Origin: a bacterium
GTDB taxonomy: Bacteria; Gemmatimonadota; Gemmatimonadetes; Gemmatimonadales; JACORV01
Direction: 5' to 3'
NCBI GenBank assembly: GCA_021787855.1
Contig: JAJYLI010000009.1
Location: 1-32,180, forward strand
Length of the DNA stretch: 32,180 nucleotides
Every line of letters starts with the position of its first letter. The stretch's first letter is position 1. The notes under the pieces are model-generated. The model did not search any database, had not been told where the DNA came from, and saw nothing but the letters and a program-made list of their open reading frames with translations. A program made the position numbers and the translations under genes. Positions 7,588 through 14,629 of the stretch are shown piece after piece.

Positions 7588-7934
7588 GCGGCGCGGCCGC
7601 CCCCCCACCCCCGGGCGGCGCCGGCGCGCCGGCGGGCGGCTGGTGGCAGGCGACGCCCGACGGCGTGCGGCTCGCCCTGCTGGTCACGCCGCGCGCCTCC
7701 CGCTCCGAGGTGGCGGGCGTGGCCGTGGACCGGCTGCGGGTGCGCCTGGCGGCGCCGCCGGTCGAGGGCGCCGCGAACCAGGAGCTGACCCGCTTCCTCG
7801 CCCACGCCCTGGGCGTGCCCCGCGCCGCCGTCGCGCTGGTCGCCGGGGTGGCGGGCCGGCGCAAGACCGTCCTGGTGCGCGGCGTCCGCCCGGAGGCGGT
7901 GCGGCGGCTGGCGCCCGCCGGACCGCCTGGGTAA
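7584..7934 (+). CDS. yggU: DUF167 family protein (YggU-like)
   Basis: A 116-residue protein whose GTG start overlaps the YggT stop. After a Pro/Gly-rich N-terminal tail of about 20 residues, the DUF167 core is clear: VTPRASRSEV, LRVRLAAPPVEGAANQEL and a final GRRKTVLVRG. The fold is small and alpha/beta; the cellular role is unknown. The N-terminal tail is longer than usual, so a start further downstream is possible, but no better start codon with a binding site is evident. The TAA stop lies inside a TAACTT that could be the -10 element of the metH transcript. Confidence 0.8.
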   Translation: MSGAAAPPPPGGAGAPAGGWWQATPDGVRLALLVTPRASRSEVAGVAVDRLRVRLAAPPVEGAANQELTRFLAHALGVPRAAVALVAGVAGRRKTVLVRGVRPEAVRRLAPAGPPG

Positions 7935-7954
7935 CTTCATTCGACAATTGACCC

Positions 7955-8004
7955 CGTGGCGATTTGCGGCGTATTGCGGCCACGTTAAACCTCCGCTAAA
8001 AAGC
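7955..8004 (+). promoter_or_regulatory. SAM-II (SAM-alpha) riboswitch, metH leader
   Basis: The fold and conserved bases match the SAM-II class. P1 is CGTGGC (7955-7960) with GCCACG (7979-7984). Its loop reads GATTTGCGGCGTATTGC (7961-7977), containing the conserved GATTT and GTATTGC, and the 3' arm is GTTAAAC followed by the hallmark GCTAAAAAG (7995-8003), which closes the pseudoknot in this class. SAM-II elements bind S-adenosylmethionine and turn off methionine-synthesis genes, and the next gene is metH, which fits. A TAACTT at 7932-7937 is a possible -10 element for the leader. The known class usually hides the ribosome binding site; here a terminator-like hairpin follows at once. Identified from memory of the consensus, not by a covariance search. 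Confidence 0.85.
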
Positions 8005-8006
8005 CG

Positions 8007-8041
8007 GCCCGGTGGTGCCAGCTTTGGCGCCGCCGGGCTTT
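8007..8041 (+). terminator. Terminator-like hairpin in the metH leader
   Basis: GCCCGGTGGTGCCA (8007-8020) pairs over 14 bp, two of them G-U, with TGGCGCCGCCGGGC (8025-8038) around a GCTT loop, followed by TTT. It lies three bases after the riboswitch 3' element and 20 bases before the metH start, so it could act as an attenuator under riboswitch control. Confidence 0.6.
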
Positions 8042-8060
8042 GACGTCCTGGAGAACCGGA

Positions 8061-13596
<5,536 letters not shown>

Positions 13597-13790: not shown

Positions 13791-14246
13791 GTGGCGCCGC
13801 GCGACCACGCGCCGGCGGGCTTCACGATCTTCGAGGCGATCCTGGTGGTCATCATCGTGATGATCATCGCCGCGATGCTGATCCCGCGGTTCGGCCTGGC
13901 GATCAGTCATTCGCGCGTCAACCGGGCGGCCAACGTCATCGCGGCGGAGCTGATGCTCTCCCAGACGCTGGCCGGGAGGCAGCACGCCCCGGTCACGATC
14001 CAGATCCGGTCCGACTCGATGTTCCTCCGGATCAGCAACCCGGTCACGAACACGATTCTGCGGACCTTCTACTTCGACGCCTCGTCCGACCTGCAGCTCG
14101 ATTCGCTGGCCTCCACGCCCGCGTCCGTTCAGGTGATGCCGAACGGCCTCGTCACGCAGACGCTCGTCATCACGGTCGGCTCCCCGGCGAACTACTACCA
14201 CCAGGTCACCATGACGATGGCCGGGCAGGTGCGCATCACGAAGTGA
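13791..14246 (+). CDS. Minor pseudopilin, GspH/FimU-like
   Basis: A 151-residue type IV pilin-like protein starting at GTG 13791. The class III signal is clear: a short basic leader MAPRDHAPAG, then the processing site G|FTIFEAILVV with Glu at position 5 of the mature protein, and a single hydrophobic helix of about 20 residues. The rest is a beta-rich globular head like GspH/FimU, which cap a pseudopilus or pilus tip. After cleavage by a prepilin peptidase it would be inserted in the inner membrane and assembled. It is the first of four genes with overlapping ends, in an order matching the fimU-pilV-pilW-pilX minor pilin operon. Confidence 0.85.
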   Translation: MAPRDHAPAGFTIFEAILVVIIVMIIAAMLIPRFGLAISHSRVNRAANVIAAELMLSQTLAGRQHAPVTIQIRSDSMFLRISNPVTNTILRTFYFDASSDLQLDSLASTPASVQVMPNGLVTQTLVITVGSPANYYHQVTMTMAGQVRITK

Positions 14247-14629
14247 CGCGCCGGCGCTCGGGCTTCACGCTGGTCGAGATCATGATGGCGGTGGTGATCT
14301 TCTCCGTCGTGATTCTCTCCCTCGAGGGGCTGTCGTTCCGGGTGTCGCAGAGCTCGACCAGGGCCACCGACCAGGCGCTCAACATGGCGGCCCTGCTCTC
14401 CAGGGTGGACCGCGCGGCCATGACGCCCTTCGGCAGCCTGTCCACCATCGCGGCCTGCGACACCACGGTGAGCGGCCCGTACCAGGTGTACGGGTGCACC
14501 ACCGTGGACAGCATCGCGCCGCGCCTGGACAGCATCCGGATCATCGTGTGGACGACGCTCCCGGGCGCGCGGCCCGACACCATGACGATGCAGCGGGGCC
14601 AGGCGTGGGCCCCCATCCCGCTCCGATGA
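14243..14629 (+). CDS. Minor pseudopilin, PilV/GspI-like
   Basis: A 128-residue protein from a GTG that overlaps the previous stop (GTGA). The leader TRRRSG precedes FTLVEIMMAVVIFSVVI, an ideal prepilin cleavage and methylation site with Glu5, followed by a short head domain. Two cysteines in the head (AACDTT and YGCTT) could form a disulfide, as in many minor pilins. Position two in the operon and the small size suggest the PilV or GspI role in the tip complex. The downstream gene starts within its stop codon. Confidence 0.85.
   Translation: MTRRRSGFTLVEIMMAVVIFSVVILSLEGLSFRVSQSSTRATDQALNMAALLSRVDRAAMTPFGSLSTIAACDTTVSGPYQVYGCTTVDSIAPRLDSIRIIVWTTLPGARPDTMTMQRGQAWAPIPLR

Follow-up and report, generated by a model that had tools for sequence, protein, structure and literature searches.

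A SAM-II riboswitch and a candidate transcription attenuator ahead of metH in Gemmatimonadota

The 32,180-nucleotide stretch of DNA analysed here (the window) comes from a 2.8-Mb genome of the phylum Gemmatimonadota, not Proteobacteria, and contains a rightwards-transcribed metH gene encoding a B12-dependent methionine synthase (8061–11768, + strand). The gene begins with GTG at 8061, and its product has the Pfam domains S-methyl_trans, Pterin_bind, B12-binding_2, B12-binding and Met_synt_B12. A ribosome binding site, GGAGA, is located at 8050–8054 (+), and upstream on the same strand is a DUF167/YggU gene (Pfam PF02594; 7227–7934). Between these two genes lie an aptamer and a hairpin, which are the subject of this report.

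The aptamer matches the full length (1–79) of the Rfam SAM_alpha model (SAM-II, RF00521) at 7946–8019 on the + strand, with a score of 41.9 bits (gathering cut-off 36). RF00521 occurs once in the source genome, SAM_alpha is the only Rfam family matched in the whole window, and no other family matches at E ≤ 1 within 7700–8200. Identities as SAM-V or SAM-I were considered and rejected, as the SAM-V model has no match in 7700–8200 at E ≤ 1 and SAM-I (RF00162) has none anywhere in the source genome. A sequence-only reading of this DNA had recognized a full SAM-II core ahead of metH, and the covariance models bear this out, with each of its parts in place. From the RF00521 alignment, P1 is formed by CGTGGC (7955–7960) and GCCACG (7979–7984), and the L1 core GATTT (7961–7965) is invariant in the six leaders of the window's family. 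The loop motif GTATTGC is seen at 7971–7977, and the conserved 3′ core GCTAAAAAG at 7995–8003 is evident from the sequence, the RF00521 alignment and the leader collection described below; all of these are on the + strand, as are the strands of the P2 pseudoknot, CGGC (7967–7970) and GCCG (8003–8006).

P1 is 100% paired in the alignment of the six family leaders, and the P2 strands are assigned from their covariation across the window's order. Among 60 scorable leaders, the pair formed across the two P2 strands is, 5′ base first, C-G in 35, G-C in 20, U-A in two and a mismatch in three, such that position-specific counting across the order finds this position complementary in 57 of 60, with three pair types. 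A permutation of P2 duplex energies was not significant where position-specific counting is clear, which we suspect reflects out-of-register pairing of GC-rich 8-mers. The full leader folds modestly better than shuffled sequences (z −1.9). Judged by these comparisons, the metH leader aptamer is a genuine SAM-II riboswitch, and it is predicted to bind SAM.

Immediately to the right of the aptamer is an intrinsic-terminator-like hairpin (8007–8041, +), in which 8007–8019 pairs with 8026–8038 and A8020 with U8025, enclosing a loop at 8021–8024 and followed by TTT at 8039–8041. The GC-rich stem of 13–14 bp has a folding energy of about −30 to −33 kcal/mol (z −4.4), with none of 200 shuffles as good. 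The sequence-only reading had described a 14-bp hairpin with a TTT tail followed by GGAGA, and that arrangement stands. The tail, UUUGACGU, has four Ts in eight with at most three consecutive, and a strict terminator scan does not list the hairpin because it demands at least five Ts in eight; same-genus relatives have runs of four and six consecutive Ts.

Relatives provide a better measure of the hairpin's significance. We assembled 111 SAM-II leaders, 109 of them from the window and its relatives and two (L034 and L071) from named Gemmatimonadota records. A hairpin and T-rich tract directly follow the aptamer in 103 of the 111, compared to 25% of dinucleotide-shuffled tails; the hairpins start a median of 8 nt past GCTAA, with a mean score of −19.8 versus −3.7 in shuffles, and 33 of the 103, including the window's, have the minimum of four Ts in eight. 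Across the order the hairpins have different sequences but recur at one position, and this supports them more strongly than do the six near-identical family leaders; within the family hairpin no pair has both sides changed, the six being too similar to inform. The conservation that the sequence-only reading had proposed examining is present in relatives. From these comparisons the hairpin after SAM-II is conserved in the order and would act as a transcription attenuator, and termination at the metH leader hairpin itself is predicted.

The DUF167/YggU gene stops 11 nt short of the aptamer match, which would put a metH promoter within the 3′-terminal part of that gene. A probable promoter can be proposed there (7909–7937, +), comprising a −35-like TGGCGC (7909–7914), a 17-nt spacer and a −10-like TAACTT (7932–7937). 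A consensus scan called no promoter. TGGCGC and a −10-like hexamer are present in five of the six family leaders, and across the order 69 of 107 SAM-II leaders contain TANNNT 12–22 nt upstream of P1, compared to about 11.5 in shuffles. Transcription probably begins near 7944–7946 in the window, and a few nucleotides ahead of the aptamer in these leaders. We also note an A-rich stretch (ACAAYYGA in many) upstream of P1 within the upstream 60 nt of the 107 leaders.

The segment of the aptamer that might pair with the terminator was sought by comparing each segment's complementarity to its own terminator with that to swapped terminators of other leaders, using 5000 permutations. Across all 103 leaders, both P2 strands give a signal (5′ strand z −7.9, 3′ strand z −4.5, each with 0/5000 swaps as good), and there is no matched-versus-swapped signal for the P1 strands, L1 or the joining segment. 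The two P2 signals separate by downstream gene. In metH leaders, one per genus, only the P2 3′ strand has a signal (z −4.5, 0/5000), and in non-metH leaders, one per genus and gene, only the P2 5′ strand does (z −7.8, 0/5000); this sampling is the only way in which the permutations account for relatedness. The P2 3′ signal holds under permutation within genes (1/5000) and recurs, again at 0/5000, in de-duplicated leaders outside the GCCG-loop class. The P2 5′ signal is lost within genes (1533/5000), in our reading because this strand rarely varies within a gene, and it therefore rests on between-gene differences. Pairings of the P2 3′ type include AAAAAGC/GCTTTTT (L006, L016, L126), AAAACGC/GCGTTTT (L013, L027, L030, L034, L136), AAGACG/CGTTTT (L139) and ACGGC/GCCGT (L019); those of the P2 5′ type include GCCGCG/CGCGGC, GCCGCC/GGCGGC, CGAGGC/GCCTCG (metF) and GGAGGC/GCCTCC (L014).

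For the window these patterns, together with folding, point to a putative antiterminator at 8000–8025 (+), in which AAAGC (8000–8004) pairs with GCUUU (8021–8025) and GGC (8006–8008) with GCC (8017–8019). When the right arm of the terminator is omitted, the transcript adopts this structure in five of six leaders of the family, the exception being that of genome G004, and 95.8% of its cells are paired in the family alignment. The antiterminator is short, with 5 + 3 pairs and a duplex energy of about −5 kcal/mol versus about −30 kcal/mol for the terminator, and control would thus have to be kinetic.

We propose, with a probability of roughly 80%, that the metH leader is a cis-acting, SAM-sensing OFF switch operating through transcription attenuation. 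Transcription would start just upstream of P1, and when SAM is scarce the P2 3′ strand and adjoining bases would pair with the terminator loop and inner left arm as described above, blocking the terminator so that polymerase reads into metH. When SAM is abundant, it would lock the P1–P2 pseudoknot and sequester the P2 3′ strand, such that the 13–14-bp hairpin (8007–8038) forms and transcription stops ahead of metH. The direction of control is inferred from the antiterminator excluding both P2 and the terminator. Consistent with this switch, the ribosome binding site lies outside the hairpin, and the genes downstream of these leaders are mostly of the methionine or aspartate pathways.

Three other readings were weighed. 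The first is that the hairpin attenuates constitutively or stabilizes the transcript, uncoupled from SAM, with SAM-II acting on mRNA stability or translation. The terminator is indeed far more stable than any alternative fold, its short U tract may make termination leaky, and an uncoupled terminator has been reported downstream of the Sinorhizobium meliloti metA riboswitch (Scheuer 2022, PMC9373788). However, an uncoupled hairpin has no need of the covariation seen between its loop and inner-arm sequences and the P2 strands, and the Shine-Dalgarno (SD) sequence is neither in nor adjoining P2, and we regard this reading as improbable. Slightly less probable still is the simple switch suggested by the sequence-only reading, in which GCCAC of the P1 3′ strand (7979–7983) pairs with GTGGT (8012–8016) in the left arm of the terminator. 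This complementarity is present in the window, and CGTGGC occurs inside the hairpin in a few other leaders (L013, L015, L134), but the P1 3′ strand gives no significant matched-versus-swapped signal either in all leaders (2136/5000) or in metH leaders only (275/5000), and the fold without the terminator right arm keeps P1 and leaves GCCAC/GTGGT unused. In metH leaders the better antiterminator on present comparisons is the P2 3′ strand with the terminator loop. Finally, masking of the SD by P2, as for the SAM-II element of a Sargasso Sea metX, is rejected as very unlikely in the window, where the SD (8050–8054) is outside the hairpin and 44 nt past P2, too distant from it, although in relatives L004, L005 and L007 the terminator is missing and AGGATG immediately adjoins the 3′ end of P2.

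The attenuation that we favor for metH has precedents elsewhere. SAM-II was described in alphaproteobacteria, along with a few examples from the Bacteroides group and other proteobacteria; many of the elements were noted to be followed by putative intrinsic terminators (Corbino 2005, PMC1273637), which were reported again in 2007; SAM-dependent attenuation was subsequently predicted for S. meliloti metZ and supported by expression data (Scheuer 2022, PMC9373788). The suggestion of the sequence-only reading that a terminator would constitute a different SAM-II expression platform is therefore not sustained. What is added here is the phylum, the wide use of SAM-II within it, and sequence evidence for a P2-based antiterminator, this kind of methionine-saving switch being already known.

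The window's element shares with the alphaproteobacterial SAM-II elements with terminators P1, the P2 pseudoknot, GATTT, GCTAAA, the placement of the terminator between P2 and the open reading frame, complementarity of the P2 3′ strand to the terminator, and methionine genes downstream; it differs in phylum and in its P2 and loop sequences. RF00521 scores are 27–61 bits in the window's order, compared to mostly 48–88 bits in the order of Ancylobacter, and metH is the main target in the window's order, unlike in alphaproteobacteria. The P2 3′ complement is often in the terminator loop in the window's order, versus the outer left arm in the alphaproteobacterial elements. In 26 SAM-II leaders with terminators from the order of Ancylobacter, the permutation counts are 11/5000 for the P2 3′ strand, 788 for the P2 5′ strand and 1492 for the P1 5′ strand; the P2 3′ pairings are often GACC/GGTC or GGCC/GGCC, and the signal is weaker than in the window's order. 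Its presence there suggests that the logic is shared and not special to Gemmatimonadota.

The metZ element of S. meliloti (RZ sRNA) is likewise predicted to terminate transcription in response to SAM immediately past the aptamer, and differs from the window's in gene and phylum; it is supported by expression data, whereas the window's switch is a proposal from sequence. For metZ the coupling is a prediction, and here about 100 natural variants define how a 50-nt pseudoknot may be coupled to a terminator, with pairing rules specific enough for compensatory-mutation tests. The Sargasso Sea metX element has the same aptamer core, with translational control through SD occlusion (PMC9373788) in place of the terminator in the window.

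The sequence-only reading had also suspected a phylum other than that of the alphaproteobacteria, correctly, and SAM-II proves to be common in it. RF00521 is found in 59 of 61 near relatives of the window genome and in 202 of 298 Gemmatimonadota genomes (77 of 119 genera), compared to 0 of 150 Actinomycetota and 8 of 148 Bacteroidota, and within Alphaproteobacteria the order of Ancylobacter has it in 47 of 61 genomes; searches of more than 40 genomes used stricter filters that lose weak matches, and these counts are thus lower bounds. An Rfam search of 16 named metH-bearing loci found SAM-II only in the two Gemmatimonadota records, L034 and L071, and in the latter (Gemmatimonadetes bacterium M_DeepCast_50m_m2_218) the element precedes metF, with metH lying about 1 kb further on. 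The genome of L071 and genome G175, a member of the window's order, agree in contig and coordinates and are 100% identical over 983 bases, which places the window in Gemmatimonadota; a MetH protein tree by itself did not place it. Our literature search found no published report of SAM-II in Gemmatimonadota, an absence that is not proof. The range of SAM-II, long regarded as chiefly alphaproteobacterial, thereby takes in an entire phylum whose members are difficult to culture.

The genes following SAM-II in relatives include metH, metF, metX, metY-like genes and others. We incline, by a slight margin over even odds, to a broader view in which SAM-II is a main methionine regulator of Gemmatimonadota, with two antiterminator wirings of one aptamer that depend on the target gene (before metH, P2 3′ pairs with the loop of the terminator; before metF, panB, metY/metX-type genes and others, P2 5′ pairs with its left arm), and a regulon that reaches panB, thrC and a RimK-like ligase.

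Several further observations concern the wider collection. Matches of 27–36 bits, below the cut-off (L174, L177–L188 and others), carry full SAM-II cores, and the RF00521 cut-off therefore appears too strict for Gemmatimonadota, although one match at 26.5 bits (L189) looks false. The metH-type leaders without a terminator and with AGGATG at the P2 3′ end (L004, L005 and L007, at 1501–1575) indicate that a translational SAM-II type probably also exists in the window's order. SAM-II is also found ahead of non-methionine genes (L002, L112, L113, L146, L152, L165, L166 and others), among them panB (confirmed by NCBIfam) and genes for threonine synthase, a RimK-family-like ATP-grasp ligase, aspartate kinase, an aspartate-type aminotransferase and phosphoadenylyl-sulfate reductase. 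In one relative (genome G019, contig C13) two SAM-II elements point away from each other across about 200 bases, at 14227–14302 on the − strand (L002) and 14510–14583 on the + strand (L164), with panB and the RimK-like gene driven in opposite directions.
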